A stretch of DNA of 46,164 nt from NCBI GenBank assembly GCA_013298025.1, contig JAAFJE010000029.1, positions 1 through 46,164 on the forward strand. Reading direction: 5' to 3'. Source of the DNA: Cytophagales bacterium (GTDB lineage: Bacteria > Bacteroidota > Bacteroidia > Cytophagales > Spirosomataceae). The stretch's first letter is position 1; the number at the start of each line of letters is the position of its first letter. Made by a program: the position numbers and the translations under genes. The notes beneath the pieces are model-generated. The model was not told where the DNA came from. It searched no databases and saw nothing but the letters and a program-made list of their open reading frames with translations. Below are positions 1 through 42,530 of this stretch, one piece after another.

Positions 1-156
1 AATTAATTAGACAAGCTTTCGCAATTATTAAAAACAACACTGTATTTCAAAATGATTTTCAGGCAAATAAAACAGCTCTCGCAAAATAATATTTGCCTAA
101 AATTTTGTTTTTTAATACAGTTCATTCAAAATTCACAACTTTCTTTCATTTTGTAT

Positions 157-258: not shown

Positions 259-381
259 AATGAATCATCGACCTATTTCAAAGATAAGATAAGGCATCAA
301 AATGATGGGGCTTCTACCTGTGAAATGGGATTGAGCTATCTAAAAGATGGAATTTCTTATTCTAAAGATAGATTTACCCTT
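193..381. repeat. Degenerate 21-bp tandem repeat, about nine units
   Basis: Nine consecutive 21-bp units can be laid end to end. Read in the + frame that is open here they give heptads EKDWLTY, LQDRISY, LFHAKNR, KNESSTY, FKDKIRH, QNDGAST, CEMGLSY, LKDGISY and SKDRFTL, so the consensus is roughly (L/S)KD(R/G)ISY. At DNA level the AAGATAG core recurs at 218, 281, 344 and 365, with a weaker copy at 302, all multiples of 21 bp apart. Middle units are strongly decayed. The frame is open from 52, but the peptide looks like no protein I know, so I read this as an untranslated decaying minisatellite in the leader of the VCBS operon rather than a gene. Confidence 0.6.
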
Positions 382-396
382 TTGCCTTTGTCTGTG

Positions 397-472
397 TTGT
401 CACGGGTGACAATGCGTTCAAGCATAATTTATAAATTGCTTGTGAAGATACAAGTAATGACAAGAGATTGTC
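397..472. promoter_or_regulatory. Paired TTGTCA dyads and a hairpin ahead of the VCBS operon
   Basis: Two dyads with opposite polarity lie upstream of the start at 496: TTGTCAC-GG-GTGACAA (397-412) and GACAA-GAGA-TTGTC (459-472), so TTGTCA or its complement occurs four times in 77 bp. Between them, 435-443 and 450-458 form a 9-bp stem with one G-T pair. This looks like an operator or a structured 5' leader. No convincing TAnnTTTG box was found here, so the promoter itself is not placed. Confidence 0.45.
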
Positions 473-495
473 AAAACACCAAAACAAAGAAATAC

Positions 496-3861: not shown

Positions 3862-3872
3862 TAGGTGAATTC

Positions 3873-4454
3873 ATGAAAATCAATCAATTATATATTTACG
3901 CTTTGCTGTTTGTATTGCTTTTAGGAGCTTGTAAACAAACGCCAGAAGAACAGTATCTAAGCTTGGAGTCGGAAGAATTAGCAACAAAAGTTCGTTACGA
4001 CAAGCTTTTTAAAGGACTTTACTTGGGCATGAAAGATTCTACTTTTTTTGATTTTTGCTTGAAGAAAAACATTCATAAAGACTTTTTTCAAGGCGGACAG
4101 AAAAATGCCTCTTGGATTACAACTAAAATACAAATACCCAAGCATAAAACCTTAGAAATCAATTTTTTCCCAACCTTTAAAGCCCAAAAAATTGCCGAAG
4201 TAAATGCTGCTTTCTATTATCAGGATGCCGTAGCTTGGAAGGTTGGTGCAAGTAATGACAAGCTTTTGAGTGATGTAATTCAGCTTTTAGAATCGTGGTA
4301 TCAGCGAAAGTTTATTAAGATAAATAGTCCTTACTTTTTCAAAAATGATGTTTTTGTAACGGTTCGGGGCAATTGTAGAATTGTAGTTTCGGAAGAAGCC
4401 CAAAGCAATGCCATCAATGTAAGGTTTATAGATTTATTAGCCCCAAAACAGTAG
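3873..4454 (+). CDS. Small lipoprotein of unknown function
   Basis: Protein of 193 residues with a clear lipoprotein signal: hydrophobic LLFVLLLGAC with the lipidated Cys at 20, followed by polar KQTPEEQ. I recognise no family. The mature part is a mixed alpha/beta-looking sequence with basic and aromatic residues and no repeats or transmembrane segments. It starts 11 bp after VCBS copy 1 and ends 3 bp before VCBS copy 2, so it is almost certainly co-translated with them. A role as a partner or accessory subunit of the large lipoproteins is inferred only from this placement. Confidence 0.8.
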   Translation: MKINQLYIYALLFVLLLGACKQTPEEQYLSLESEELATKVRYDKLFKGLYLGMKDSTFFDFCLKKNIHKDFFQGGQKNASWITTKIQIPKHKTLEINFFPTFKAQKIAEVNAAFYYQDAVAWKVGASNDKLLSDVIQLLESWYQRKFIKINSPYFFKNDVFVTVRGNCRIVVSEEAQSNAINVRFIDLLAPKQ

Positions 4455-4457
4455 TTC

Positions 4458-7400
4458 ATGCAAGGTTTGAAAAGAAATATATGGGTGCTGATGCTATCAT
4501 TTACAGCTTGGGCTTGTCAGTGGAATCAAAGTGAAAAACCTTTGTTTACCGAATTGTCGGCTGCCGAAACAGGTATTGACTTTCAGAATACCGTTACCGA
4601 TAGCAAGGAGTTCAATATTTATACTTACCGAAATTTTTATAATGGTGGTGGCGTAGCCATTGGCGACATCAACAACGATGGTTGGCAAGATATTTACTTC
4701 ACCGCCAACATGGGGAAAAACAAATTGTACTTGAACAAAGGCAATGGAAAATTTGAAGATATTACTAAAAAAGCAGGCGTAGAAGGTACAAAAGCATGGT
4801 CAACTGGCGTGACGATGGCAGATGTAAATGGCGATGGTTGGTTAGATATTTATGTGTGTAATTCGGGAGATGTAAAAGGCGACGACAAACAAAACGAACT
4901 TTTTATCAATAATCAAAACGGAACTTTTAGCGAAAAAGCCGAAGAATACGGCTTGGCAGACAAAGGTTTATCGACGCACGCTTCTTTTTTTGACTATGAC
5001 CAAGATGGTGATTTGGATGTTTATATTCTGAATAATTCTTATCGTCCGATTGGCTCATTTAATTTGGCGAACATCGATAGAGATATAAGAGATGAATTAG
5101 GAGGCGATAAATTGTACAGAAATGATGGCGGAAAATTTAAAGACGTTAGTCAGGAAGCACATATTTATGGCAGTGCCATTGGCTTTGGTTTGGGCTTGGT
5201 TGTTTCCGATTTTAATGATGATAGTTGGTTGGATATGTATGTATGTAACGATTTTTTTGAACGAGATTATCTCTACATCAATCAGCACGATGGTACTTTT
5301 TCCGAAGAACTTACTCAGCAAATGCCTTCCATTTCACAGGCAAGTATGGGTGCAGATGCCGCCGATTTAAACCATGACGCTTTACCCGAATTGTTTGTAA
5401 CAGAAATGTTGCCCAAAGATGAAGAAAGGTTGAAAACTTCCATGACTTTCGAGAATTGGAATAAGTATCAATACAACCAAAAGTATGGTTATCATCAGCA
5501 GTTTACACGCAATATGTTGCAGCTCAACAATGGAGCAAACGAGCTTTCAAAAGGTTCATTTAGTGAAATTGGTAGATTTGCAGGCGTAGAAGCGACCGAC
5601 TGGAGTTGGGGAGCTTTGATGGTAGATTTTGATAACGACGGTTGGCGAGATATTTATGTGAGTAACGGCATTTATAAAGATATTCTGAATCAAGATTACT
5701 TGAAATTTATTTCAAGCGACGCTTTTGCCAAAACGGTTATCTCAAAAGATGGTGTAGATTATAAAAAATTAATCGACATTATTCCGTCGAAACCGATTGA
5801 AAACTACGTTTTTGCAGGCAAAGCAGATTTAGCTTTTGAAGACAAAACTAAAGCTTGGGGGCTGGATAAACCTAGTTTTTCTAATGGTTCGGCTTATGGC
5901 GATTTAGACAATGATGGCGATTTAGATTTGGTTGTAAACAACGTCAACATGCCTGCTTTTGTGTATAGAAACGAAAGTAATACAGTGGAAGAAAAAGGCA
6001 ATTTTCTGAGAATACAACTCAAAGGAAAAGATAAGAATACTGCTGCGATTGGAGCAAAAGTAATAGCCTTTTCAGCAGGAAAACAGTACATGGTTGAGCA
6101 AATTCCTTCTCGTGGTTTTCAATCTTCGGTAAGTAATTTGTTGCAAATTGGTTTAGGGAAAAATGCTAAAATTGACTCCATGCTGATTCGTTGGCCAAGA
6201 GGGGGATTCACAAAAAGTTATCAAGTAAAAGTAAATCAAACTTTGGTTTTTGATGAAAAAACAGCTTCAACTTTTCAGCAAAAACCAGAATCAAGCAAGC
6301 AAAATAGTACTTTCTGGAAAGACATTTCTAAGGATTTTTCAGTAGATTTTTCACATCAAGAAAATACTTATAGCGATTTTGACGATGTGCCTTTACTCTT
6401 CCAAATGCTCTCGACCGAAGGCCCACATTTGGCAGTGGCAGATGTCAATGGCGATGGTTTGGAAGATGTTTTTATTGGTACTGGCAAAGGATTTCCTGCC
6501 AAATTATTACAACAAAAAGCGGATGGCAGTTTTGTACAGACCAATCAAAAGCTTTGGGAAATGGACAAAAATGCCGAAGATGTGGATGCCGTTTTCTTCG
6601 ATGCCGACCAAGACCATGATTTGGATTTGTACGTGGCAAGCGGTGGGAGTGAGGCAGGCGAGCAAAGTAATGAACTGAGCGACCGATTGTATTTTAATGA
6701 TGGCAAAGGGAATTTTACAAAATCATTCCAGTTTTTACCAACGATTAAATTTGAAAATACAGCTTGTGTAAAACCTGCTGATTTCGACCAAGATGGCGAT
6801 ATTGATTTGTTTGTGGGCATTCGTGCTGCTAATCGACATTATGGTTTGCCACAAAATGGCTATTTTTTGCAAAATAATGGCAAAGGGCTTTTTAGTAATA
6901 TTACGCTAAAAATTGCTCCGGCTTTAAATCAAATCGGTTTGATTCGTGATGCAAAATGGATTGATGTTGATAAAGACAAACGGCTTGATTTAGTAATTGT
7001 TGGAGAGTGGATGGGTGTTCATATCTTCAAAAATTCGCATGGAAAATTTGAAGATATTTCCGAAAAATTAGGCGTATCAAATGTAAAAGGTTGGTGGAAT
7101 ACTATTCAATCAGCTGATTTGGATAACGATGGTGATGAAGATTTGATACTCGGAAATAATGGATTAAATTCCAGATTTAGAGCTTCTGAAAGCAAGCCTA
7201 TTCAACTTTTTGCCAGTGATTTTGATAACAATGGTTTCTTTGAGCAAATTCTGTGTACTTACAATGGCGAAGAATCTTACCCTTTAGTTTTACACCAAAA
7301 TATCACAGCTCAATTGCCTTATTTGAAGACTAAATATTTGAAAAATGAAAGCTATAAAAATCAGAAAATCAATGATTTATTTACCCAAGAGCAATTATCA

Positions 7401-7796
7401 AAAGCGACGCAACTGGAAGTAAATACTTTAGAAAGTGTCGTACTAATCAATCAACAAAAAGAGGGATTTAGGATACAAAAATTGCCATATCAAGCACAGC
7501 TTTTTCCGATTTATGCCATTCATGTTACAGACATCAACCATGATAAATTTCCAGATTTAATTTTAGGTGGAAATCTCTACGAAGCCAAACCAGAAGTAGG
7601 CAGATACGATGCTGGTCGTGTGCTTTGCTTATTAGGCAAAGGCGACGGGACTTTTTCTGTTATATCAAATAAATTATCGGGTATTTATGTAGAAGGGCAA
7701 ATTCGAGATTTCAAAACCTTGAAAGTAGGAAAAAAAGAAGTATTAATGGTAGCTAAAAATGGGGCTAAGTTTCAGGTTTTTTGTAAGGGAAAATAA
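4458..7796 (+). CDS. VCBS/FG-GAP and ASPIC/UnbV repeat lipoprotein, copy 2
   Basis: Lipoprotein of 1,112 residues and the closest paralog of copy 1. The signal is MQGLKRNIW followed by a hydrophobic run and TAWAC (Cys20). It shows seven Asp-rich motifs (from IGDINNDG to YGDLDNDG), an ASPIC/UnbV domain near residues 516-598, then seven more (from VADVNGDG to VTDINHDK). This 7 + ASPIC + 7 arrangement suggests two seven-bladed propellers joined by the ASPIC domain. It shares near-identical DNA blocks with copy 1, consistent with tandem duplication. Calcium binding is expected from the family; ligand and enzymatic activity, if any, are unknown. Confidence 0.88.
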   Translation: MQGLKRNIWVLMLSFTAWACQWNQSEKPLFTELSAAETGIDFQNTVTDSKEFNIYTYRNFYNGGGVAIGDINNDGWQDIYFTANMGKNKLYLNKGNGKFEDITKKAGVEGTKAWSTGVTMADVNGDGWLDIYVCNSGDVKGDDKQNELFINNQNGTFSEKAEEYGLADKGLSTHASFFDYDQDGDLDVYILNNSYRPIGSFNLANIDRDIRDELGGDKLYRNDGGKFKDVSQEAHIYGSAIGFGLGLVVSDFNDDSWLDMYVCNDFFERDYLYINQHDGTFSEELTQQMPSISQASMGADAADLNHDALPELFVTEMLPKDEERLKTSMTFENWNKYQYNQKYGYHQQFTRNMLQLNNGANELSKGSFSEIGRFAGVEATDWSWGALMVDFDNDGWRDIYVSNGIYKDILNQDYLKFISSDAFAKTVISKDGVDYKKLIDIIPSKPIENYVFAGKADLAFEDKTKAWGLDKPSFSNGSAYGDLDNDGDLDLVVNNVNMPAFVYRNESNTVEEKGNFLRIQLKGKDKNTAAIGAKVIAFSAGKQYMVEQIPSRGFQSSVSNLLQIGLGKNAKIDSMLIRWPRGGFTKSYQVKVNQTLVFDEKTASTFQQKPESSKQNSTFWKDISKDFSVDFSHQENTYSDFDDVPLLFQMLSTEGPHLAVADVNGDGLEDVFIGTGKGFPAKLLQQKADGSFVQTNQKLWEMDKNAEDVDAVFFDADQDHDLDLYVASGGSEAGEQSNELSDRLYFNDGKGNFTKSFQFLPTIKFENTACVKPADFDQDGDIDLFVGIRAANRHYGLPQNGYFLQNNGKGLFSNITLKIAPALNQIGLIRDAKWIDVDKDKRLDLVIVGEWMGVHIFKNSHGKFEDISEKLGVSNVKGWWNTIQSADLDNDGDEDLILGNNGLNSRFRASESKPIQLFASDFDNNGFFEQILCTYNGEESYPLVLHQNITAQLPYLKTKYLKNESYKNQKINDLFTQEQLSKATQLEVNTLESVVLINQQKEGFRIQKLPYQAQLFPIYAIHVTDINHDKFPDLILGGNLYEAKPEVGRYDAGRVLCLLGKGDGTFSVISNKLSGIYVEGQIRDFKTLKVGKKEVLMVAKNGAKFQVFCKGK

Positions 7797-11149: not shown

Positions 11150-13126
11150 ATGAAAAAAGTACTCTTAATGGTGTGTTGGCTTTTGGCTTTTTATGCCAAT
11201 GCCCAAAAACTTTCTTTTGATTATCCCATCAGACCGATTGATTTCACCAAAGTAAAAGTAACGGGCGGTTTCTGGAAGAGTCGTTTAGATACTGTTGAAA
11301 ACAAAACGATTCCTTATGCTTTTCAGAAATGCGAGGAAACGGGTAGAATCAATAATTTTATTTTTGCTGGCGGACTCCAAGAAGGAAAATTCAAAGGAAG
11401 TTTTGGCTTTGATGATTCGGACGTTTATAAAATCATCGAAGGAGCTTCCTACTCTTTGATGAACGAGCGTAATCCTAAATTAGACGCTTATTTGGACAAA
11501 GTAATTTCGTACATAGCCGCTGCTCAGGAAGATGATGGCTATTTGTACACTGCTTGGACCTTGAAAGCGAATGATTACAACAAATTCCAATGTTGTTCTT
11601 ATGACCCTAAAGGTAGATTTTTGGGTGAAAAAATGAGCCACGAATTTTATGACGCTGGTCACATGTACGAAGCGGCGGTTGCCCATTATGTTGCTACGGG
11701 CAAAAAGTCATTCTTGAATATTGCCACTAAAAATGCAGATTTGATTTATGATTTATGTTTCAATAAGGGTTTACAAAGCTATTCGGGGCATCAGGAAATA
11801 GAGTTGGGTTTGATTAAATTATTTAGAGTAACCAATAATAAAAAGTACCTTGACTTAGCAAAACTATTGCTTGAAAGGCGTGGTCATCAGCCACTTACAG
11901 GTAAAAAGACCGACTTCGATAGTCCTGCTTATTCACAAGACCACTTGCCTGTAACTCAGCAAGACGAAGCCGTAGGGCATTCTGTGCGTGCAGTTTATAT
12001 GTATGCGTCGATGGCTGATATTGCAGCTATTACAGGCGATAAAGCGTACCTAAAGGCGATAGATAAACTTTGGGAAGATATTGTTAGCAAAAAAATGTAC
12101 GTGACTGGTGGTTTGGGTGCTGCACATGGTATCGAAGGTTTTGATGTTGCCTATGCTTTACCAAACGACGCTTATGCAGAAACCTGTGCGGCTATTGCCA
12201 ATGTTTATTGGAATCACCGTATGTTTTTATTGCATGGCGAATCTAAATACATGGACGTTTTAGAAAGAACTTTGTACAATGGTTTGATGTCTGGTTTGTC
12301 TTTAGAAGGAGACAAATTCTTTTATCCAAATCCACTTGTATTTGATGGAAAAGAGAAATTCAATCAAGGAGCTACTTGTCGCAGTCCATGGTTCGACTGT
12401 TCATGTTGTCCTTCCAATCTTTCAAGATTTGTCCCTTCGGTTTCGGGATATGTGTATGCCGTAAAAGATAACAGTGTTTTTGTCAACTTATTTATGAATT
12501 CGGAGGCTACTTTAGCGGTAAAAAATCAAACCATTCAATTGACCCAAACGACCAATTATCCTTGGAGTGGCGATGTAAATTTATCGGTTAAAACGTCAAA
12601 GTTAACGCCTGCTACTTTACGGATTCGTATTCCGGGTTGGTCGCAAAACGAAGCCGTACCAAGCGATCTATACTATTTCAACGCCACTTCAACTGCCAAA
12701 ACTATCATTAAATTAAATGGGAAAGCGGTAACATATAAAATAGAAAATGGCTACGCTTTGATTAATCATTCTTGGAAAAGTGGCGATAAAGTAAGTATAA
12801 GTTTCCCGATGGAAAACAAAACTTTGACAAGTAATCCAAATATCAAAGCAAATACAAATAAAGTAGCTGTTCAAAGAGGACCAATGTTATTTTGCGTAGA
12901 AGCACAAGACAATAACAATCATGCTTTAGACATTTCCTTAAACGAACAATCCCCTTTGACGGCAGAATATCAAAAAAATCTGCTAAATGGAGTAACCATT
13001 TTGAAGGGGAAAGGCTGGATAAATACCAACGAAGGAAAACAAGAAGTCCCTATTCAGATGGTTCCCTATGTAGTTTGGGGACACAGAGATATTAAGCCGA
13101 TGGCAGTTTGGTTGGGCAAAAATTAG
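11150..13126 (+). CDS. GH127 beta-L-arabinofuranosidase (DUF1680 family)
   Basis: Secreted enzyme of 658 residues with a signal peptidase I type leader (MKKVLLMVCWLLAFYANAQ) and no lipobox, so probably periplasmic. The GH127 signature is complete: Glu344 and Cys346 in AETCAAIANVYWN, a conserved Glu329 fifteen residues earlier as candidate acid/base, and Cys419-Cys420 in CSCCPSNLSRF. In characterised GH127 members a zinc ion held by one Glu and three Cys supports a cysteine nucleophile that releases L-arabinofuranose from beta-linked units. Members with other specificities exist, so the exact linkage is inferred. Last gene of the VCBS operon, 5 bp after copy 3, with a small hairpin just downstream. 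Confidence 0.9.
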   Translation: MKKVLLMVCWLLAFYANAQKLSFDYPIRPIDFTKVKVTGGFWKSRLDTVENKTIPYAFQKCEETGRINNFIFAGGLQEGKFKGSFGFDDSDVYKIIEGASYSLMNERNPKLDAYLDKVISYIAAAQEDDGYLYTAWTLKANDYNKFQCCSYDPKGRFLGEKMSHEFYDAGHMYEAAVAHYVATGKKSFLNIATKNADLIYDLCFNKGLQSYSGHQEIELGLIKLFRVTNNKKYLDLAKLLLERRGHQPLTGKKTDFDSPAYSQDHLPVTQQDEAVGHSVRAVYMYASMADIAAITGDKAYLKAIDKLWEDIVSKKMYVTGGLGAAHGIEGFDVAYALPNDAYAETCAAIANVYWNHRMFLLHGESKYMDVLERTLYNGLMSGLSLEGDKFFYPNPLVFDGKEKFNQGATCRSPWFDCSCCPSNLSRFVPSVSGYVYAVKDNSVFVNLFMNSEATLAVKNQTIQLTQTTNYPWSGDVNLSVKTSKLTPATLRIRIPGWSQNEAVPSDLYYFNATSTAKTIIKLNGKAVTYKIENGYALINHSWKSGDKVSISFPMENKTLTSNPNIKANTNKVAVQRGPMLFCVEAQDNNNHALDISLNEQSPLTAEYQKNLLNGVTILKGKGWINTNEGKQEVPIQMVPYVVWGHRDIKPMAVWLGKN

Positions 13127-15146: not shown

Positions 15147-15210
15147 GAACATTTGTCTTATAGATTTTGTGATTAGTGCTACTGTATTTTTGATGAGCAA
15201 CCTTACTTTG
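15147..15210 (+). promoter_or_regulatory. Shared promoter module, SusC1 operon
   Basis: GAACAT at 15147-15152, GTGC at 15176-15179 and TTACTTTG at 15203-15210, each separated by exactly 23 bases. GTGC is preceded by ATTTTGTGAT plus two bases. The same layout occurs at 36900-36963 and 44439-44502. TTACTTTG fits the Bacteroidota -7 box TAnnTTTG with one mismatch, and no TTTG sits at -33, as expected of an activator-dependent promoter. Binding by the HTCS proteins encoded nearby is inferred. Confidence 0.65.
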
Positions 15211-15257: not shown

Positions 15258-18200
15258 ATGAAGCAAGATTACCAACCTATTTTAACTAAACGAAAAAAGC
15301 GACACCTTACCCTTTGGTGTACCTTATTTTTGTTCCTGTTTTCGGGTTTTGCATTGCAAGCCCAAACAGTCAAAGGAACGGTGAAGTCCGTAACTGGTGA
15401 AGGAATTCCTGGCGCAACCATTGTTGTAAAAGGAACAACCCGAGGAACCAATGCTAGTAGAGAGGGAGCATTTACGATTAAGTGTTCTCCTAAAGAAATC
15501 TTAGTCATTAGCTCTATCGGATACAAGACCCAAGAAGTACCCGTTGGCAACAAAACGCTTATCAATGTAGTGCTAGAAGAACAGCAATCGGCATTAGATG
15601 AAGTAGTAGTTGTGGGTTATGGTAAGCAAAAGAAAGAAGGCGTTGTAGCGTCTGTTACCCAAACAACAGGCAAAGTGCTAGAGCGTGCTGGGGGTGTATC
15701 GAGTATTGGAGCAGCCCTAACGGGTAACGTACCGGGTCTTATTACAAATGCTAGTACTGGTTTGCCTGGAGGAGAAGACCCTCAAATCTTGATTCGTGGC
15801 TTGAGTAGCTGGAACAATTCATCTCCTTTGATTTTGGTCGATGGCGTAGAACGTCCTATGAACAGCGTGGACATCAGTTCTGTAGAAACCGTTACTGTAT
15901 TGAAAGATGCTTCGGCCACGGCGGTGTTTGGTTCGAGAGGTGCAAACGGTGTAATTTTGATTACGACCAAACGAGGTAGAACAGGAAAAGCCTCTATCAG
16001 GGCTACGGTGAATACCATCATGAAAACGCCGTCGAAATTACCGGGCAAATATGATTCTTTCGATGCTTTACGCATTCGCAACGAGGCTATAGAGTATGAA
16101 TTGGCAACCAAGCCCGATGGCTGGAGAGATTATTTACCCTACGATATTCTGAACAAATACCGCAATCCTGCCGATGTGACCGAAGCCGAACGCTACCCGA
16201 ACGTAGATTGGGAAAAAGCCTTGTTTAAGGAAGCTGCTTGGTCAAACAATGCCAACCTCAATATTACGGGAGGTACAAATACGGTGAAGTATTTTACCAG
16301 TGCCGACTTTTTGCACGAAGCAGACTTGTTCAAAACGTATAATAATAATCGTGGGTACGAACAAGGCTTTGGCTTCGACCGTATCAATGTGCGTAGCAAC
16401 CTCGATTTTCAGTTGACACGCAGCACACTTTTCAAAACCAATTTATCTGGTTCGTATGGGGTTCGTAAGAGTCCTTGGGGCTTTACGGGTTCGCAATATG
16501 GCCCTTGGATAGATGCCTACAATGCTGCCCCCGATTTGTTTTTACCAACATATTCAGATGGCTCTTGGGGGTATTATGCACCCAACGAAGCCCGTGCCGA
16601 AAACTCGGCTAGAAGCTTGGCGATTGGGGGTATCTTGTATCAGACTACAGCCAGAATTACGACCGATTTTACCCTCGACCAAGAGCTAGATATGATAACG
16701 AAAGGACTCAGGTTTACAGGAACGATTTCGTTAGATAATACTTTTGTAGAAAGTGACAGGGGTATCAACGACTTGTACAACGATACTCAACGTAAATGGG
16801 TCAATCCAGAAACCGGTGCTGTAACCTACCGACAAGCCATTGATGGTATCACAGGTTTTGATTTTCAGGAAGGTATCAAATGGTCGCCAGCAGCAGGGTC
16901 TATTGGAGCAAGTGATAGAAGAACTTTCTATCAATTACAACTCAACTATGGTCGTACTATTGCAGGCAAACACAATGTGACAGGTATGGGCTTGATGAAC
17001 CGCAACGTGTATGCCAGTGGAAGTATGATTCCTTCGTACCGTGAAGACTGGGTTTTTAGAACAACTTATACTTTCAACAATAAATATACGGTTGAATACA
17101 ACGGTGCGTACAACGGTTCTGAGCAATTTGCTGCTCCTTATCGCTTTGCCTTTTTCTCATCGGGTGGGGTCAACTGGGTATTATCTAATGAAAAGTTTAT
17201 CAAGTCTTTAAAGTTTGTGGACCAACTGAAATTGCGTGCTTCTTATGGACAAACAGGCTTTGATAACTTGGGTGTTAGATGGCCATACCTAGAGCAATGG
17301 CAATACAGTGGTAAGTCACGTTTGGGTATTAGTGGCGAAGGTGCCGAGCAAAGTCCTTACACCTGGTATAGCCAAACGGTGGTTGGAAACCCTAATGTGC
17401 AATGGGAACAATCAGAAAAATACAATGTCGGACTAGATTTTGAATTTTTGAGTGGATTTATCAAAGGAAAAGCCGACTTTTTTACCGATAATCGTAGCAA
17501 AATCTTGTTGGCCAACCGTACAGACGTTCCTACTTATTTTGGAGCAACCCCTCCTGTGGCAAACCTTGGTGCAGTAAAGGCTAGTGGTTATGAGTTAGAA
17601 TTGCATTTAAACAAACAGCTTGGCAAATTTAGGTTATGGACAGACCTAAACATGACACATACGCAAAACAAAATTTTGGAAGCGGCCAACCCTGAATTAC
17701 TACCAGATTATCAAAAATCGGAAGGAATGCAGATCAACCAAGCCTACTCGTATGTAAGTCGTGGTATGTATAATACTTGGGACCAACTCTATGGCAGCAC
17801 CATACACAATGCCAACGACAATCAGAAACTTTTAGGCAATTATTACTTGGTTGATTACAATGGCGATGGCGTGATTGATGCCCAAGACAATATTCCTTAC
17901 GGCTACACAGGTTGGCCTGCCAATACCTATAACGCTACTTTTGGCTTGGATTGGAAAGGATTTTCGGCATTCGTTCAGTTTTATGGAGTTAACAACGTAA
18001 CTCGACAAGTAGTTTTTTCTAGTTTGAGTTCACAAAGCCACACGGTTTATCAGGAAGGAGCTTATTGGTCGCCGAGCAATACCGACGGTACGCCTATGCC
18101 TCGTTGGCTTACAACGCCTTCGGGCTATTACAGAGGTACGCAATACATGTATGATGGCTCTTATTTACGTCTGAAAAATGCCGAAATAGCCTATACTTTC

Positions 18201-18386
18201 ACGCCAGAATTTAGTAAAAAACTGGGCCTTTCTAATCTGAGAATCTATTTGAATGGAAATAACCTGATAGCATGGAGTAAAATGCCAGACGATAGAGAGT
18301 CGAATTTTGCTGGTACAGGATGGGCTTCACAAGGAGCGTACCCTACGGTAAAACGATTCAATTTAGGACTCAATATTACATTTTAA
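15258..18386 (+). CDS. SusC/RagA-family TonB-dependent outer-membrane transporter (SusC1)
   Basis: Protein of 1,042 residues, normal length for SusC. A signal peptide ends near FALQAQ (about 36). A carboxypeptidase-D-regulatory-like domain follows (about 38-108), then the TonB-box-like DEVVVVGYG (114-122), a plug with LVDGVERPMNSVDISSVETVTVLKDASATAVFGSRGANG-type signature, and a beta-barrel ending in FNLGLNITF. It imports oligosaccharides bound by SusD, driven by TonB and the proton gradient. It starts 48 bases after the -7 box of the shared promoter module and is followed 11 bp later by its SusD partner. The GH10 further downstream points to xylan oligosaccharides as cargo; this is inference. 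Confidence 0.93.
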   Translation: MKQDYQPILTKRKKRHLTLWCTLFLFLFSGFALQAQTVKGTVKSVTGEGIPGATIVVKGTTRGTNASREGAFTIKCSPKEILVISSIGYKTQEVPVGNKTLINVVLEEQQSALDEVVVVGYGKQKKEGVVASVTQTTGKVLERAGGVSSIGAALTGNVPGLITNASTGLPGGEDPQILIRGLSSWNNSSPLILVDGVERPMNSVDISSVETVTVLKDASATAVFGSRGANGVILITTKRGRTGKASIRATVNTIMKTPSKLPGKYDSFDALRIRNEAIEYELATKPDGWRDYLPYDILNKYRNPADVTEAERYPNVDWEKALFKEAAWSNNANLNITGGTNTVKYFTSADFLHEADLFKTYNNNRGYEQGFGFDRINVRSNLDFQLTRSTLFKTNLSGSYGVRKSPWGFTGSQYGPWIDAYNAAPDLFLPTYSDGSWGYYAPNEARAENSARSLAIGGILYQTTARITTDFTLDQELDMITKGLRFTGTISLDNTFVESDRGINDLYNDTQRKWVNPETGAVTYRQAIDGITGFDFQEGIKWSPAAGSIGASDRRTFYQLQLNYGRTIAGKHNVTGMGLMNRNVYASGSMIPSYREDWVFRTTYTFNNKYTVEYNGAYNGSEQFAAPYRFAFFSSGGVNWVLSNEKFIKSLKFVDQLKLRASYGQTGFDNLGVRWPYLEQWQYSGKSRLGISGEGAEQSPYTWYSQTVVGNPNVQWEQSEKYNVGLDFEFLSGFIKGKADFFTDNRSKILLANRTDVPTYFGATPPVANLGAVKASGYELELHLNKQLGKFRLWTDLNMTHTQNKILEAANPELLPDYQKSEGMQINQAYSYVSRGMYNTWDQLYGSTIHNANDNQKLLGNYYLVDYNGDGVIDAQDNIPYGYTGWPANTYNATFGLDWKGFSAFVQFYGVNNVTRQVVFSSLSSQSHTVYQEGAYWSPSNTDGTPMPRWLTTPSGYYRGTQYMYDGSYLRLKNAEIAYTFTPEFSKKLGLSNLRIYLNGNNLIAWSKMPDDRESNFAGTGWASQGAYPTVKRFNLGLNITF

Positions 18387-18397
18387 TACATAAAATC

Positions 18398-20287
18398 ATG
18401 ATAAAGGGAGTTAAAATTTTAGTAATGTCGCTAGGTCTTTGCATGACTTTAGGAGTAGTATCCTGTAAAGATTTTTTATCCAGAGACCCGCAATCTGTGG
18501 TATCTGACAAAGATGCTTTTAAGAATTTCGTTAATTTTCAAGGATTTACCGAAGAGTTATATCATTGTATTCCTGATTTTACAAATGCCTATTGGACCAA
18601 CTCATGGAACTGGGGCGAAGACGAAATTCAATCGACAGCCCAAACGTTTCACTTTTGTGTAAAAATAGACAATGGCGATTTTTGGGGATGGCAACGCAAT
18701 TTTGACGGCTGGCAGGCAGGATGGATGGACAGAAACAGCAACCAAACCAACGACGACCGTTTTGCTAAATCGCTTTGGGGTTTGGGTTGGTATGGTATCC
18801 GTAAAGCCAATATGGGGCTTGCCAATATTGATAAACTAACCGATGGGACTCAAGAGGAAAAAGACTTAATCAAAGGACAATTGTTGTTCTTTAGAGGGTG
18901 GTTTCATTTTATGTTTATGCAATATTTTGGAGGTTTACCATACATTGATACCGTACTTCCGGGCGACGAAAAACTTACTTTGCCACGCCTCAAATACAGC
19001 CAATGTGCCGATAAAGCTGCGGCTGATTTTAGAGCCGCCGCCGATTTATTGCCTGCCAACTGGGACAATACTACCGCAGGAAAAAGAACTCTTGGTAAAA
19101 ACCAATTGCGTATCAACAAGATTATGGCCTTGGGATACCTCGGCAAAAACTACCTTTGGGCCGGTAGTCCATTGATGAACTTGGTGTCTAATGGTACTCG
19201 TTCGTATAATGCCGATTACTGCAAAAAAGCCGCTGATGCTTTTGCCGAACTGTTAACCTTGTGCGAAAACGGAACCGCTCCTTATAGCTTAGTGCCTTTT
19301 GCCCAATATTATACTAATTTTTATACAACTGGACAAAACTGGAATATTCCAGGAGGCACAGAAGCGATTTTTAGAGGCCCTTATTATGGTGCTAATAGCT
19401 CTAACTGGGGTACAAGTAAGCAATATACACCTCTGATTATCAGTGAAGGAGATGTGAAATTTCTGCCTACTTCCAATTATGTAAGTTACTACGGCATGGC
19501 CAATGGTTTACCTATCAAAGACATCACCAAAGCCGATGCCGAATCGGGGTATAATCCAGAATATCCTTGGAAAGGACGTGACCCCCGCTTTTACAACGAT
19601 ATTGTTTTCGATGGCGTAAAAATGGTGGCTGGAAGTATTCCTAATGCCAACGAAGCCAATAACCGTTATGCCAATTTGCATACAGGTGGCTCGTATCGTG
19701 ACATTGCTACGGGAAGTCGTACAGGATTTTTACTCTTTAAGTTTGTGCCAAGAACGGCCAATAAATACGACCAAGGCTATAGCTACGACAAAAGCTTGAA
19801 CGTGCATTTACCTTATATGCGTTTGGCGGATGTGTATTTGATGTATGCCGAAGCGGCTGCACAAGGCTACGGCTCGCCCACAAGTAAGCCTGCGAGTTAT
19901 GCCAAAACGCCTGTAGATGCCATCAATATGCTTCGTGATAGGGCTGGCGTAGGGCGTGTAGCACCGCAGTTTTCGGCTTCGCTCGATGCGTTCATGGAAG
20001 AGTTGCGTCGTGAACGAGCGGTGGAACTTTCTTTTGAAGGACATCGTTTCAATGACCTTCGTCGTTGGTTGCTTTTAACCCAAAACCCTTATACCCTCAA
20101 AAAATCTATTGAATTTGACAGAGCTGCACCACTCGACCCCAACAAAGACCCTAAAGAAAATAAAGTGGTCAATTTGAGGGAAGTAGTGATTTTAGAACGC
20201 AAGTTTACGGATAAACATTATTGGCTTCCTTTGAAAAACAACGATGCTAATTTGTACCTAGAATTTGCCCAAAATCCAGGATGGTAA
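18398..20287 (+). CDS. SusD/RagB-family glycan-binding lipoprotein (SusD1)
   Basis: Lipoprotein of 629 residues. The start at 18398 is chosen because it follows the SusC1 stop and opens the signal MIKGVKILV...LGVVSC with Cys23; the open frame reaches back into SusC1. The sequence has the SusD N-terminal domain, helical TPR-like part and the C-terminal RagB portion with typical RDRAGV and ERAVELSFEGHRFNDLRRW. It caps the SusC1 barrel at the cell surface and captures oligosaccharides. A 129-bp gap to SusC2 holds a weak long-range stem (20301-20309 with 20356-20364) and no clear terminator. Confidence 0.92.
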   Translation: MIKGVKILVMSLGLCMTLGVVSCKDFLSRDPQSVVSDKDAFKNFVNFQGFTEELYHCIPDFTNAYWTNSWNWGEDEIQSTAQTFHFCVKIDNGDFWGWQRNFDGWQAGWMDRNSNQTNDDRFAKSLWGLGWYGIRKANMGLANIDKLTDGTQEEKDLIKGQLLFFRGWFHFMFMQYFGGLPYIDTVLPGDEKLTLPRLKYSQCADKAAADFRAAADLLPANWDNTTAGKRTLGKNQLRINKIMALGYLGKNYLWAGSPLMNLVSNGTRSYNADYCKKAADAFAELLTLCENGTAPYSLVPFAQYYTNFYTTGQNWNIPGGTEAIFRGPYYGANSSNWGTSKQYTPLIISEGDVKFLPTSNYVSYYGMANGLPIKDITKADAESGYNPEYPWKGRDPRFYNDIVFDGVKMVAGSIPNANEANNRYANLHTGGSYRDIATGSRTGFLLFKFVPRTANKYDQGYSYDKSLNVHLPYMRLADVYLMYAEAAAQGYGSPTSKPASYAKTPVDAINMLRDRAGVGRVAPQFSASLDAFMEELRRERAVELSFEGHRFNDLRRWLLLTQNPYTLKKSIEFDRAAPLDPNKDPKENKVVNLREVVILERKFTDKHYWLPLKNNDANLYLEFAQNPGW

Positions 20288-20416
20288 GCTAAGTGAAAAA
20301 GGTGAGTTGTGCATTTGATATTTGATAATCAGTTTGTTATTATTTTTTAAATGTCCAGCTCACCACTAATTCATAGCTCATACTTATTTCATTTTATTAG
20401 ATAAACAAACAAAGAA

Positions 20417-23400
20417 ATGAAGTTGATAAAATTACTAACAATCTTGTGCACGTGGTTGCTATGCTCGACCCATCTGCTACAGGCACAGGAGGTTTCGACC
20501 ATAAAAATAAAAGCTACCGTTTGGAACAGCAACAGCCAGCCCATCAAAGGGGCGGTTGTGAGTAGCTCGGCGGAAAACGGGAAAATTGCCACAACAGACG
20601 TATGGGGAACGTTTGAATTAGAAGTTCCTCAAAACGAAGTATTGTCGGTTTCGGCCAAGGGCTTTCAAACTAAATACATAACCATCACACAACCCATTAG
20701 CGAAATTGTACTAATCGAAGAGAAAGCTACCGATATGGTACATCTCGCTTTTCGGGATGTTGCCAAACAACATTTGCTCGGAGGGGTGTCGTATGTAAAT
20801 GTAAATGAACTTTTACAGAAAAATTACTTTACTTACACCCTCGAAGGCATGGAATCGTTGGCATCAGGCTTCAATGGCAACAGCAATTGGGGCATGGGTA
20901 ATTATTTGTTTATGATTGACGGCGTACCTCGTGAAACGGGCAACGTAACCCCTACTGAAATTGAGCAAATTGTATTTTTGAAAGGAGCAAACGCTGTTGC
21001 CTTGTACGGTAGCCGTGCTGCCAAAGGCGTGGTGAATATCATTACGAAAAGAGGAGAAGCCAACAAAACCCGTTTCGATTTAAGAGTAAACAGCGGTATT
21101 AATTTACCCAAAGCGTATCCTAAATATTTGGGTTCTGCCGAATACATGACGCTCTACAACGAAGCCCGCCGAAACGATGGTTTGACCGATTTGTATTCGG
21201 AAATAGATATTTATAATTATGCGTCGGGTCGCAACAAATACCGTTATCCGAATGTCGATTTTTATTCTGCCGATTATTTGAAAAATAGCTTTATGCGTTA
21301 CGATGCTACGGCGGAAATTTCGGGAGGAAACGAACGCATCAGGTATTATACCAATTTGGGCTTTACTACAACGGGTTCTTTACTCAACTTCGGCGAAGCC
21401 AAAAATAATAGCAATGCCGACCGACTTAATTTTAGAGGAAATATCGACGTAAATCTCAACGAATACATCAGTTTGAACGTGGACGCAACCGCCATTTTCT
21501 ATACAGGCAGGGGCGTAAATGCCGACTATTGGGGCAGTGCCGCTTCGGTGCGTCCAAACCGTTTTACCCCACTCATTCCGATTGATTTGATTGAAAAAGA
21601 GGATGCTGCTTCTCAAATATGGATTCAGAATAGCAATAACCTCATCGATGGAAAATACTTGTTGGGCGGTACACAGCTAGACCAATCAAACCCTATTGCG
21701 ACTATCTATGCAGGAGGTAATAACCAGTACGCCAACCGTCAGTTTCAGTTCAATACAGGATTCAAAGCCAACCTTGGTAATGTATTGAAAGGCTTGTCGT
21801 TTCAGTCGAAATTTGCTGTAGATTATGCCACAGCTTACTCGCTTTCGTATAACTACACTTACGCAACTTATAGCCCCACTTGGAATAATTATAGCGGAAC
21901 AGATTTGATTAGTAGCCTTGCCGTGTATAACCAAGATACCAAATCGGGAACGCAAAACGTAAATGGTAACTGGTACCGCCAGACCATTGCTTTTACGGGA
22001 CAATTGAACTACGACAGAACCTTTGCCGCCAACCATCATTTGTCGGTGATAGCCTTGGCCAATGGTTTTCAGCAATCGGAATCGGCGGTGTATCACCGCA
22101 CAAGCAATGCCAATATAGGCTTATTGGCAAGCTATAATTTCAAGGATAAATACTACCTCGATTTTAGTGCGGCATATATTCATTCGGCTAAATTACCGCC
22201 AGCCAACCGCCAAGCCCTTTCGCCTTCGGTTACGCTCGGATGGCGTATCAGCCAAGAGCCGTTTTTAAAAGATGTAAAAGCCATCAACGACCTCAAGCTT
22301 ACGGCTTCGGCAAGTATTTTGAATACCGACTTAGACATCTCTGATTATTATTTATACCAAGGTATTTATACAGGTGCTGGCTCGTGGTATGGTTGGAAAG
22401 ATGGAACTGGGATTCAGGCAACCGAATCTCGTAGAGGGGATAACCCCAATATGAAATTTCCAAGAAGAGAAGAAATTAACGTAGGTATTGAAGGAACATT
22501 TTTCAACAATAGTTTACAGGTAAATGGTACGTTTTTTACAAATAAAATCACAGGTAATATTATCCAAGCGGGTGTTTTATTTCCCTCTTATTTTACCACA
22601 GGATGGCCCGTTTCTTCTTTTATTCCTTATGTTAATTACAATGAAGACCAACGCATTGGCTTCGATTTTGGGGCAAGTTTTCATAAAAAGATAGCAGATA
22701 TTGATTGGAATATTGGTGTCAATGGTACTTACTACGAAACAACTGCTGCGAAAAGAGCAGAAGTTTATGAAAATAGCTACCAATACCGCCAAGGAAAAGC
22801 ATTAGACGGTATATGGGGTTTACAAAACTTAGGATTCTTCCAAGATGCAGATGATATTAAAAACTCTCCTTCGCAGACTTTCGGACAAGTAAAACCCGGT
22901 GACATCAAATACAAAGACCAAAACGGCGATGGTATCATCGACTCTCGTGATGAGGTATTTTTAGGTAAAGGAGGCTGGTTTGGTGCACCTTTTACGATGG
23001 GTTTACATCTATCAGCCAAATGGAAAAACTTGAGCTTTTTTGCTTTAGGTGTAGCTCGCTTTGGAGCAAATGCCATGCGTAATAACTCGTATTTCTGGGT
23101 TAGCGGAGAAAGTAAATATTCGGAAATAGTACGCAATCGTTGGACAGAAGCCAACAAGCAAACCGCTACGTATCCACGTCTTACAACATTCAACAGCGAT
23201 AACAACTTCCGTTCTTCGGATTTCTGGATTTACACAACCAATCGTTTTGATTTGTCTAAAGTACAAGTGACCTACGACCTAACAAGTGCCTTGAAAATGA
23301 AAGCATTTGTCAAAGAACTAGGCGTTTATGTAAGTGGTTTCAATTTGTTGACGGTAGCCCCTAACCGTGAAATTTTGGAAATGAACGTAGGGAGTGCACC

Positions 23401-23443
23401 TCAAACAAGGTTATTTAATTTAGGATTGAAAGCATTGTTCTAA
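20417..23443 (+). CDS. Divergent SusC-type TonB-dependent transporter (SusC2)
   Basis: Protein of 1,008 residues with signal peptide MKLIKLLTILCTWLLCSTHLLQAQ. A carboxypeptidase-regulatory-like domain covers about 30-100 and the plug has MIDGVPRETGNVTPTEIEQIVFLKGANAVALYGSRAAKG-like sequence. It lacks the DEVVVVGYG box of SusC1 and SusC3; in its place are residues ATDMVHLAFRDV (about 104-115) followed by LLGGVS, a variant I associate with a separate SusC subfamily. The barrel ends in RLFNLGLKALF. It is encoded in the same operon as SusC1 with its own SusD partner, so it may take a different oligosaccharide size class or decoration. Confidence 0.9.
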   Translation: MKLIKLLTILCTWLLCSTHLLQAQEVSTIKIKATVWNSNSQPIKGAVVSSSAENGKIATTDVWGTFELEVPQNEVLSVSAKGFQTKYITITQPISEIVLIEEKATDMVHLAFRDVAKQHLLGGVSYVNVNELLQKNYFTYTLEGMESLASGFNGNSNWGMGNYLFMIDGVPRETGNVTPTEIEQIVFLKGANAVALYGSRAAKGVVNIITKRGEANKTRFDLRVNSGINLPKAYPKYLGSAEYMTLYNEARRNDGLTDLYSEIDIYNYASGRNKYRYPNVDFYSADYLKNSFMRYDATAEISGGNERIRYYTNLGFTTTGSLLNFGEAKNNSNADRLNFRGNIDVNLNEYISLNVDATAIFYTGRGVNADYWGSAASVRPNRFTPLIPIDLIEKEDAASQIWIQNSNNLIDGKYLLGGTQLDQSNPIATIYAGGNNQYANRQFQFNTGFKANLGNVLKGLSFQSKFAVDYATAYSLSYNYTYATYSPTWNNYSGTDLISSLAVYNQDTKSGTQNVNGNWYRQTIAFTGQLNYDRTFAANHHLSVIALANGFQQSESAVYHRTSNANIGLLASYNFKDKYYLDFSAAYIHSAKLPPANRQALSPSVTLGWRISQEPFLKDVKAINDLKLTASASILNTDLDISDYYLYQGIYTGAGSWYGWKDGTGIQATESRRGDNPNMKFPRREEINVGIEGTFFNNSLQVNGTFFTNKITGNIIQAGVLFPSYFTTGWPVSSFIPYVNYNEDQRIGFDFGASFHKKIADIDWNIGVNGTYYETTAAKRAEVYENSYQYRQGKALDGIWGLQNLGFFQDADDIKNSPSQTFGQVKPGDIKYKDQNGDGIIDSRDEVFLGKGGWFGAPFTMGLHLSAKWKNLSFFALGVARFGANAMRNNSYFWVSGESKYSEIVRNRWTEANKQTATYPRLTTFNSDNNFRSSDFWIYTTNRFDLSKVQVTYDLTSALKMKAFVKELGVYVSGFNLLTVAPNREILEMNVGSAPQTRLFNLGLKALF

Positions 23444-23446
23444 ACG

Positions 23447-23503
23447 AGTATTGTACGACGAATGAAAAAACTGCAATCGTTTTTCAGACGCTCGTACAAT
23501 ACT
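23447..23503 (+). repeat. Nested stem-loop between SusC2 and SusD2
   Basis: AGTATTGTACGA (23447-23458) pairs perfectly with TCGTACAATACT (23492-23503). Inside, TGAAAAA (23463-23469) pairs with TTTTTCA (23480-23486). The structure begins 3 bp after the SusC2 stop and has no U-tract, so it looks like an intercistronic RNA structure (stability or processing) rather than a terminator. No other intergenic gap of this operon shows one this strong. Confidence 0.7.
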
Positions 23504-23537
23504 AAGGATAAACTAAAAAAACAGACTTTTATACACG

Positions 23538-25328
23538 ATGATGAATAAAGGAATTTTAACCATACTTGCCTGTATCTTGCTACTCACGAGCTGTCAAGAC
23601 CTGATAGAACCAGCCCAAGAAAACAACAGGCAACTCGACCCAAGTGCTTATTTACCAAGCGATTCGAGGTTTCCTTTCGGAATATTGCTTAATGGCTACA
23701 ACCGTATTCCTAGCAATGGATGGTCGTTTAATGATGTGGCAACCGACGATGCCGTAACCAACGACCAAACCAATGGCTATTTGAAAATGGCAACAGGCCA
23801 ATGGACAGCCAACAACAACCCAGCCAACCAATGGACAAATGGCTACGCTGCCATTCAGTACCTCAATATTATGCTAGGCGAAGTAGATAAAGTGCAATGG
23901 GTAAACGACCCCGTTGCCAGCAAGCTATTTGCTACACGCATCAAAGGAGAAGCGTATGGTTTACGGGCTTTGTTTATGTATCACCTGCTACAAGCCCATG
24001 CAGGCGTAGGAAAAAACGGAGCAATTTTGGGTGTACCTATTTTACTAAAACCACAAACAACCTCCGATAACTACAATTTGCCTAGAGCTACGTTTGATGA
24101 TTGTATGAAACAAATTTACCAAGATTTAGATAGTGCCGACGTAAAATTGCCTTTAGATTACCAAAATCTTGCACAAGGACAAGAAGCGTTGATTCCTGCC
24201 AAATTTGGTAAAGTAACCCTTGAGCAGTACAACCGAGCTTTTGGGGTGACGTTCAGCGGTTTGTTGAGCGGACGCATCGCTAAGGCTATCAGAGCCAAAG
24301 CTGCCTTGTTGGCGGCAAGTCCGGCCTTTAATCCCAACAACACTGCCAAATGGGTCACAGCAGCCAACTACGCTGCCGAAGTACTCAACCTCAAAGGCGG
24401 CCTTAGTGCTATTACTTCCAATGTAGCCAGTGGTCTTACATGGTATGCCAATACAAGTGAAATAGCCAACCTCAAAGATGGTGCAAACCCACCTGAAATA
24501 CTTTGGCGTAACAACTGGGGCGAAAACAGAGATTTAGAACAAGCCAATTTTCCGCCTACGTTATTTGGCAATGGCCTCATCAATCCTACGCAAAATTTGG
24601 TAGATGCCTTTCCTACCTTGAATGGTTATCCAATCAATAACTCTTCTAGTGGCTATGACCAAGCAAACCCTTACAACAACCGAGACCCTCGCCTAAGAAT
24701 GTTTATTTTGGTCAATGGCAGTACAGCAGGGGTAAACAACACGGCAATCAATACCGCAGCCGATGGAACAACCAACGACGGGCTCAATAAAGTAGCCACT
24801 TCTACCCGAACGGGCTATTATATGCGTAAACTTTTACGACAAGATGTAAACCTCAACCCCACATCGGCAACCAACCAACGGCATTATAAACCCCATATTC
24901 GCTATACAGAAATAGCCCTTACGTATGCCGAAGCTGCCAATGAAGCTTGGGGACCTACTGGCACGGGAACAAACAGTTTTTCTGCCTACGACATCGTAAG
25001 AGTCATTCGCCAACGGGCAGGTATTGGCGTAAGTAATGGCGATGCCTACCTCGAAAGTGTAAAGAACGACAAAGAACTCATGCGTCAGTTGATTCGTAAC
25101 GAACGCCGCTTAGAGCTTTGTTTTGAAGGATTCCGTTTTTGGGATTTACGTCGCTGGGATGCCAACCTTACCGAAACAGCCAAAGGAATGAGCATCAGAA
25201 GTGGGGCTTATTCGGTATTGCCTAGTGTAGAATCACGGGTGTATCAGCCTTATATGAAATATGGTCCAATTCCTTACTCTGAGTTATTGAAATTCAATGC
25301 TTTAGAACAAAACCAAGGCTGGAATTAA
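23538..25328 (+). CDS. SusD/RagB-family glycan-binding lipoprotein (SusD2)
   Basis: Lipoprotein of 596 residues (signal MMNKGILTILACILLLTSC, Cys19; a second ATG at 23541 is equally possible). It shows the SusD pattern, including the early ATDDAVTNDQ segment and the C-terminal IRQRAGIGV and NERRLELCFEGFRFWDLRRW typical of RagB/SusD. It is the surface partner of SusC2. It follows SusC2 after 94 bp containing a strong stem-loop and precedes the DUF1735 gene by 41 bp. Confidence 0.91.
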   Translation: MMNKGILTILACILLLTSCQDLIEPAQENNRQLDPSAYLPSDSRFPFGILLNGYNRIPSNGWSFNDVATDDAVTNDQTNGYLKMATGQWTANNNPANQWTNGYAAIQYLNIMLGEVDKVQWVNDPVASKLFATRIKGEAYGLRALFMYHLLQAHAGVGKNGAILGVPILLKPQTTSDNYNLPRATFDDCMKQIYQDLDSADVKLPLDYQNLAQGQEALIPAKFGKVTLEQYNRAFGVTFSGLLSGRIAKAIRAKAALLAASPAFNPNNTAKWVTAANYAAEVLNLKGGLSAITSNVASGLTWYANTSEIANLKDGANPPEILWRNNWGENRDLEQANFPPTLFGNGLINPTQNLVDAFPTLNGYPINNSSSGYDQANPYNNRDPRLRMFILVNGSTAGVNNTAINTAADGTTNDGLNKVATSTRTGYYMRKLLRQDVNLNPTSATNQRHYKPHIRYTEIALTYAEAANEAWGPTGTGTNSFSAYDIVRVIRQRAGIGVSNGDAYLESVKNDKELMRQLIRNERRLELCFEGFRFWDLRRWDANLTETAKGMSIRSGAYSVLPSVESRVYQPYMKYGPIPYSELLKFNALEQNQGWN

Positions 25329-25369
25329 GCATGTTCTGATATTTCATTTATTCTAAAATTACATTATTC

Positions 25370-26329
25370 ATGAAGAAATTAATTTATATACTGGGCTTAG
25401 GAATGATGGGGTTACTTTCTTGTAATGCCGAGAAAGAATTTCCTGATTATAAATACCAAACGGTATATTTTGCGTATCAATACCCTATCAGAACTATCAC
25501 ACTCGGCGAAGATACGTATGTAAACACCGACCTTGATAATCAGCATAAATTTCAAATTTATGCCGCCACAGGAGGCGTTTATTACAGCAAAAAAGATGTA
25601 TCTATTGCGGTAAATGTGAATAACTCGCTTTTAGGTAGTGGCTTACGCTTTGGCTCAGGAAAAGACGAAATATTACCCATGCCGAGCAATTATTACACCT
25701 TGGCATCCAACAACATTGTGATTCCGAAAGGAACGCTTGCTGGGGGCGTAGATGTACAATTGACAGATGCGTTTTTCGCAGACCCCAAAGCCATCAAAAA
25801 TACCTACGTCATTCCTCTAAACATGACCAAAGTAACCGATGCTGATTCTATTTTATACGGAAAACATTTTGTTTTATATGCCGTAAAATTTGTGAATCCT
25901 TGGCATGGCAATTACCTCAGAAGGGGCAAGGATGTCGTAACGGGTTCGCTCAACCAAACCATTGTACGTCATGCACAATATGTGGAAAAAGACGAAGTAA
26001 ACAAACTTTCCACCAAATCTTTGAGCGAGTTGGAGTTTCCTGTAGTCGTGAAAGACAAAGACGGCAAAAACATCAATGTTACCTTGCTACTCAAATTTGA
26101 CAACGAAGGCAAATGTACCATTAGCTCTAGTACAAGCGGTTTTACAGCTACTGGTTCGGGCGTATTTGTGAAAAAAGGAGAGAAAAATAGTTGGGGAAAC
26201 AAAGACAGAGATGCCTTGTATTTGAAATATGAGATAGACTTGACAAGCATGAAAGTTGCCACAACCGATACACTTGTGATGCGTGACCGTGCCGTAACGA
26301 TGGAAACTTTTACGCCAGTTGCCAAGTGA
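25370..26329 (+). CDS. DUF1735-type surface glycan-binding lipoprotein
   Basis: Lipoprotein of 319 residues (signal MKKLIYILGLGMMGLLSC, Cys18). The N-terminal half resembles the DUF1735 (BT_3987-like) domain, with ITLGEDTYVNTDLDN, the characteristic MPSNYYTLASNNIVIPKG and a later YVIPLNM. The C-terminal part, starting near KFVNPWHGNYLRRG, resembles a DUF4361-type domain. Proteins of this layout sit after SusCD pairs and act as surface glycan-binding proteins. The gene lies between SusD2 (41 bp) and the GH10 gene (25 bp), so it probably presents xylan to the enzyme. Ligand not shown by sequence. Confidence 0.82.
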   Translation: MKKLIYILGLGMMGLLSCNAEKEFPDYKYQTVYFAYQYPIRTITLGEDTYVNTDLDNQHKFQIYAATGGVYYSKKDVSIAVNVNNSLLGSGLRFGSGKDEILPMPSNYYTLASNNIVIPKGTLAGGVDVQLTDAFFADPKAIKNTYVIPLNMTKVTDADSILYGKHFVLYAVKFVNPWHGNYLRRGKDVVTGSLNQTIVRHAQYVEKDEVNKLSTKSLSELEFPVVVKDKDGKNINVTLLLKFDNEGKCTISSSTSGFTATGSGVFVKKGEKNSWGNKDRDALYLKYEIDLTSMKVATTDTLVMRDRAVTMETFTPVAK

Positions 26330-26354
26330 TATGTTTAAACTAGACCATTGTAAC

Positions 26355-32473: not shown

Positions 32474-32581
32474 TGTCTATCTTACACATTTTTTACTCTT
32501 TTCATGTTGGGTTTGTAAAGCCCAACAGCATTATCCATTCAAAGATTTTTTCGGTTTATCAAAAGAAAAAATTGATTGACT

Positions 32582-42528: not shown

Positions 42529-42530
42529 AA

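Follow-up and report, generated by a model that had tools for sequence, protein, structure and literature searches.

A xylan-utilisation cluster with three copies of a 64-bp module

The window, the whole stretch of 46,164 nucleotides analysed here, is the entire contig C22 of a Cytophagales genome (5.44 Mb, 53 contigs). It carries the core of a xylan-utilisation system, whose exact make-up we take to be two SusC/SusD pairs, a protein of unknown role, a GH10 enzyme and a hybrid two-component regulator (HTCS). Two HTCS genes are present, their products 55–56% identical. The features are listed below, with putative half-site limits drawn from the conserved columns and the sister-clade sites.

15147–15210, + strand: module 1, ahead of SusC1; putative distal half-site 15147–15156, proximal half-site 15168–15179, −7 box 15203–15210; matrix score 61.0 bits; predicted start about 15215
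15258–28037, + strand: unit 1, the xylan-utilisation core, with SusC1, SusD1, SusC2, SusD2, a BT_3987-like/DUF5627 protein and GH10
28193–32284, + strand: HTCS1, candidate reader; AraC-type DNA-binding domain at residues 1271–1348
32576–36703, + strand: HTCS2, candidate reader; AraC-type domain at residues 1279–1355
36900–36963, + strand: module 2, ahead of SusC3; putative half-sites 36900–36909 and 36921–36932, −7 box 36956–36963; matrix score 60.4 bits; predicted start about 36968
37035–42015, + strand: unit 2, SusC3 (ATG at 37035) and SusD3
44439–44502, + strand: module 3, ahead of the second GH10; putative half-sites 44439–44448 and 44460–44471, −7 box 44495–44502; matrix score 70.0 bits; predicted start about 44507
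44555–46164, + strand: unit 3, a GH10 xylanase, then a protein whose N-terminal domain is of GH65 type (Glyco_hyd_65N_2), truncated by the contig end

The genes of unit 1 would be co-transcribed, judging from their order and strand. Large FG-GAP/UnbV_ASPIC proteins (two of the scanned frames) are encoded at 52–7796, upstream of a GH127 beta-L-arabinofuranosidase gene at 11150–13126. Between SusD3 and the second GH10, at 42510–44124, lie a small helix-turn-helix gene and a HipA-like gene, which look like a toxin-antitoxin pair inserted into the sugar cluster.

The original prediction described the motif GAACAT-N23-GTGC-N23-TTACTTTR ahead of SusC1, SusC3 and the second GH10. It was recovered exactly at all three places, always on the + strand and with both spacers of 23 bp, and ATTTNGTRAT-N2 directly precedes GTGC in each, as had been claimed. 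The downstream part alone, GTGC-N23-TTACTTTR, matched three times in the window and not once in 100 dinucleotide shuffles.

Occurrence of the module and of the HTCS1/HTCS2 clade

Across the whole genome, GTGC-N23-TTACTTTR matched at seven places and GAACAT-N23-GTGC at six, three of these six being the window modules, against two matches for each reversed control. A relaxed form, RAACA-N24-GTGC-N23-TTAYTTTR, gave four sites: the three window modules and one on contig C4 (176446–176509, − strand). The nearer end of C4 is 15 kb away from the fourth site, which is therefore at least that distance from the window, the draft leaving contig joins open. This site precedes a GH30-like gene and a GH115 glucuronidase gene. 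The GH30-like protein resembles the glucuronoarabinoxylan xylanase XynC (256 bits, model cut-off 650), with Pfam GH30 just below cut-off. The site and its genes are consistent with a xylan regulon. Thus all three of the predicted units stood, and their number did not, since at least four units carry the module.

Among the four other genomes of the genus, the exact three-part pattern occurred in none and the relaxed pattern in three. When both gaps were left free (17–31 and 16–30 bp), 18 of the 84 counted pairs fell on (24,23), with AACA as the start of the count, and every other of 224 gap combinations had at most three; these counts cover, among the matches listed, 9 tabulated genomes of 18 searched, with G001, G003 and G004 left out owing to swamping by a dispersed repeat, plus six more. 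This repeat, containing CTCTTTGCCTTGTGCCTGTTGCC, is present many times in the three genomes, which belong to the same genus.

The relaxed pattern, looser than the original motif, served as the strict pattern for the family. It gave 31 matches in 16 of 222 family genomes, and the reversed pattern one. Two matches (G154 and G208), without SusC, GH10, GH30 or GH43 downstream, were set aside as chance. By closest match, the genes after the remaining 29 sites were SusC1 (9), SusC3 (11), GH10 (3), GH30 (2), GH43 (3) and one unassigned (site L159), after which the next frame is hydrolase-like. The SusC3-closest genes were 34–100% identical, two of them only 34–36%, and one GH43 target, 528 bp away, was weak by BLAST and clear in Pfam. 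Many hits far from glycan genes had been named as speaking against the original prediction; as 28 of the 29 strict sites precede susC or glycan-degrading genes, it was not refuted on this point.

A matrix was built after dropping 8 near-duplicates of the 29 sites. Over 22 loci (428 kb), real sites scored 60–73 bits and the next best 10.5, and nothing in the reversed sequence exceeded 5. Four additional sites had a variant −7 box, three before SusC1 and one before GH43; three came from the matrix scan, in three more genomes, with TTTCTTTG as the box, and the extra GH43 site was in G001. The total was thus 33 family sites, 32 of which precede SusC, GH10, GH30 or GH43 genes. Distances to the start codon were narrow: 46–50 bp after the −7 box in 8 of the 9 strict sites of SusC1 type (for L181 taken from the homology start; no start found for L165) and 66–71 bp in 11 of 11 SusC3-type sites. 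Over 390 genomes of the order, a looser pattern matched 14 places in 13 genomes outside the family, against five reversed-control matches there, and judged on sequence these look like chance. It also matched G172, a family genome outside the HTCS1/HTCS2 clade.

With HTCS1 as query, a clade at 51% identity or more was found in 18 of 222 family genomes, other listed matches being at most 44% identical; the limit is this identity gap, seen after the motif search, and the bit scores on either side of it differ little (1,197 and 1,225, the latter from a broken copy in G004). Relatives with the closest HTCS include Flectobacillus (Cytophagales, Flectobacillaceae in the NCBI taxonomy), Arcicella, Pseudarcicella and Emticicia. 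A pattern covering both −7 variants matched 30 places, against 2 for the reversed control, and was present in 17 of the 18 clade-bearing genomes and absent from the other 204. The Fisher test (p = 1.6 × 10−24) is only nominal because the genomes are related and the pattern was drawn after the variants had been seen. The earlier strict pattern gave 14 of 18 against 2 of 204 (p = 6.6 × 10−17, likewise over related genomes). In the one exception, G046 (86% complete), the HTCS lies on a 4.5-kb contig that ends about 250 bp past the gene.

This co-occurrence supports the original proposal that the promoter depends on an activator, namely one or both HTCS, and proteins of the HTCS1/HTCS2 clade are very probably its readers. 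It could be due in part to the cluster travelling as a block among related genomes. In Arcicella rosea (G044), a site on contig C6 (L159, L133; 12514) is preceded by about 1.5 kb by a partial HTCS2-like stretch (L133 10001–10960; 74% identical over 319 aa), and is thus no clean unlinked case. In G004, the HTCS1-type gene (L082 10001–14067) falls in two overlapping frames with in-frame stops, reflecting either a broken gene or an assembly error, and the modules remain.

HTCS types were assigned by identity, the HTCS1 type being 66–70% identical to HTCS1 and 56–57% to HTCS2, and the HTCS2 type closer to HTCS2. The module was present where only the HTCS1 type was seen (G106, G111, G161, G162, G165) and where only the HTCS2 type was seen (G112, G127, G160, G163, G166, G170), two candidates having been scored per genome, so that additional copies can be missed. 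AraC-type domains were delimited by profile search. Within them, SRGTLY and SNPNYF, which we take to be the recognition helices by AraC homology, are shared by HTCS1 and HTCS2 in nearly identical form.

Anatomy of the predicted operator and promoter

The module is highly likely, as part of the overall explanation, to contain an operator in the form of a 21-bp direct repeat, with a distal half-site at columns 1–10 (RAACATTTGK) and a proximal half-site at columns 22–33 (RGTGATWTGTGC). The −7 box TTACTTTR begins 23 bp past the latter. Conservation in the window's clade is highest at AACA (2–5), G9, GTGC (30–33), TA (34–35), a T tract (42–45) and the −7 box; the search pattern itself fixed R1, AACA, GTGC and the −7 letters, leaving the remaining columns alone as free evidence.

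The repeat is degenerate in this clade. A preset shift of 21 bp gave p = 0.02–0.06, and the best score over all shifts was not significant (p = 0.18). A 13-bp shift had the highest score of all, above the 21-bp shift; it was absent among ACANNTGT pairs of the sister clade, and a 13-bp direct repeat is kept as a possible sub-box pattern. An inverted repeat (GAACAT...ATGTGC) was rejected, its best score not exceeding that of permuted columns (p = 0.34).

Much clearer repeats were found near a sister HTCS clade (42–44% identity), where the repeat most often reads GAACAWWTGT-N11-GAACAAATGTGC, 24 bp from TAnnTTTG. The 21-bp repeat was carried by 16 of 20 upstream regions in a loose form and by 10 in a tight form, 14 of the 16 coming from one genus and many being nearly identical; no site was found in the other four (L235, L244, L245, L247). 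The sister pattern demanded the 21-bp shift and the TAnnTTTG box and left the distance between them free at 18–30 bp, and the gap was 24 bp in all 16. With the shift free, 12 of 14 ACANNTGT pairs lay at 21 bp, both strands of the palindromic unit being counted. With AACA alone, 25 of 320 pairs did so, second to a 3-bp shift with 34. The sister-clade repeats end in GTGC in 9 of 16 cases and otherwise in ATGC, CTGC or GTTC.

The clearer repeat in the sister clade argues that GAACAT and GTGC each form the outer end of a half-site within a single operator. The motif and spacing of the original three-part reading are retained, and its first two elements are better read as half-site ends, followed by a putative −7 box, than as independent boxes. 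In the window's modules, TA (columns 58–59) lies 24 bp after GTGC, matching the distance to the box in the sister clade. The first helix (mostly SRGTLY) and the outer operator ends are common to both clades, and the second helix and inner bases differ. This is suggestive, not proof, of parallel change in helix and operator.

The last element had been proposed to resemble the −7 box. It shares five (ending in G) or four (ending in A) of the six fixed bases of TAnnTTTG, and at the corresponding position 16 of the 20 sister-clade regions carry TAnnTTTG itself (box demanded, distance free). The usual distance of the −33 box TTTG is 19–21 bp. No TTTG starts at columns 28–42 in the three window modules, in agreement with the claim that the GTGC block takes the place of this box. 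Placing the −7 box at −12 to −5, the position it has in Flavobacterium psychrophilum (PMC9723704, in the part available), would put the transcription start at about column 69, a purine in 21 of 28 clade sites. All 28 have C or T directly after the −7 box and A at column 72. Columns 65–74, which would be the first transcribed bases, are also conserved in these sites, beyond apparent promoter need.

Predicted readers, alternatives and wider meaning

Our preferred reading, to which we assign a probability of about 0.85 on comparative sequence evidence, is that the module is the operator and core promoter of a xylan regulon under the HTCS1/HTCS2 clade. Periplasmic sensing of a xylan oligosaccharide, the presumed inducer, would yield a phosphorylated HTCS, the form presumed to act. 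Two AraC-type domains of HTCS1 and/or HTCS2 would bind in tandem on one DNA face, and the promoter-proximal domain would touch RNA polymerase in a class-II-like manner, enabling a poor promoter to work and switching on the xylan regulon. In AraC-type class II activation, two half-sites lie in tandem with the proximal one occupying the upstream promoter element, and the same arrangement is predicted here. The non-consensus core and an operator at −33 are what such an activator would need. Unlike these systems, the present one would combine a Bacteroidota −7 box with a membrane-bound hybrid kinase. KHIP seems to be the sequence in both receivers (HTCS1 residues 1174–1177, window 31712–31723, and the matching part of HTCS2); most HTCSs have S/CHIP there, a motif tied to inhibited DNA binding in the accessible text of PMC11253607.

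Within this reading, it is possible, if doubtful, that one paralogue reads all sites, or each its own subset, the other paralogue having another target. Of 12 genomes having an HTCS2-type gene, 10 have a module downstream of that gene and no more than about 600 bp from it, and SusC1 sites often carry GAACATTTGT with a −7 box ending in G. However, this SusC1 subtype fails in G001, G003 and G004, the presumed recognition helices are nearly identical, and genomes with either type alone (two candidates scored in each) have the module. An HTCS1–HTCS2 heterodimer behind the unequal half-sites was also considered, and is not needed because genomes showing HTCS1 only retain the asymmetry.

The −7 element might instead be read by an alternative sigma factor of the TAnnTTGY type, which we consider unlikely. 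TA and TTR sit closer together by one base than they do in TAnnTTTG, with C or T next in all 28 clade sites, an arrangement resembling motif SM5 of F. psychrophilum (PMC9723704, in part). However, the housekeeping box is also followed by C or T (TANNTTTGY; PMC12632263, in the portion available), 16 of the 20 sister-clade regions have TAnnTTTG in this position (box demanded, distance free), and G161, G162 and G165 have TTTCTTTG there.

It is more improbable still that another regulator, encoded elsewhere, reads the module, with the HTCS genes as merely linked passengers. An AraC-like protein of about 638 aa is encoded divergently from SusC1 in G161, G162 and G165 (L216 10855–12771, L219 440–2356, L217), genomes in which the HTCS1 type alone was seen. 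Against this, the window lacks this protein, the 204 family genomes without the HTCS clade yielded no module, the operator form and 21-bp spacing are those of published HTCS sites, and the sister HTCS clade has a parallel variant. A third HTCS, on C4 about 10 kb from the C4 site, was rejected as reader because its first recognition helix differs. Finally, chance, or common ancestry of whole intergenic regions, is negligible as an explanation: orthologous promoters do share ancestry, but sites within one genome precede unrelated genes (SusC, GH10, GH30), and 31 matches in 222 genomes stand against one for the reversed pattern.

The reading of the module as an HTCS1/HTCS2 operator agrees with what is known of HTCSs, a main class of glycan-use regulators in Bacteroides (PMC11253607, in part). 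Direct repeats averaging 21 bp were predicted for 16 of 36 HTCSs of B. thetaiotaomicron by Ravcheev et al. in 2013 (PMC3878776, in the text available), where neighbouring paralogues were proposed to share motifs and distant operons were found to be part of the same regulon. Since such repeats were already predicted in Bacteroides, the module belongs to a known kind of switch. As there, a direct repeat of about 21 bp lies ahead of susC operons, a paralogous HTCS pair sits in one locus, and a distant operon joins the regulon; here, in contrast, the bacterial class is another, the target is xylan and one half-site is degenerate. The likeness rests on form and spacing, not on half-site sequences, and the available text of PMC3878776 gives no fixed distance to a −7 box. 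The cluster likewise resembles the xusABCD/Xyn10/XynR systems of Prevotella and Bacteroides (PMC8002723, in part) in its paired SusC/SusD, GH10 xylanase and HTCS, and differs in having two adjacent HTCS paralogues, a third SusC/SusD pair and a defined operator common to its units. In the available portions of PMC11253607, PMC11501099, PMC6874557 and PMC8002723, the HTCS operator is nowhere placed at a set distance from the −7 box, nor was a published account tying the two positions found in a search mostly outside the subscription literature. What is added here is the fixed register of operator to −7 box, together with a regulon that extends across the family.

In 66 loci near more distant HTCS genes, direct repeats (shift 20–22 bp) before TAnnTTTG numbered 23; reversed sequence gave 10, and two mock boxes gave 8 and 11, box frequencies not being equalised and the repeat-to-box distance not being uniform. 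Repeats of 20–22 bp before TAnnTTTG, at 21–26 bp in several, occur at L129, L089, L104, L097, L124 and others, and are candidate operators of other HTCSs. A palindrome, GAACATTTGTT...AACAAATGTTC, lies close to one of the more distant HTCSs (L234 9080–9143, in G155). We tentatively propose, at somewhat below even odds, a general and rigid promoter grammar for HTCS activators, in which a 20–22 bp direct repeat, with its proximal end at a fixed distance of about 24 bp (two helical turns) from the −7 box, replaces the −33 box and is kept while half-sites and regulator diverge.

The definition of operator, register and regulon members is sufficient for target prediction, including the GH30–GH115 operon on the other contig, and the two clades provide an example of operator sequence drifting between regulators with its geometry retained. 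If the general grammar is true, HTCS regulons would be readable straight from genome sequence across Bacteroidota.
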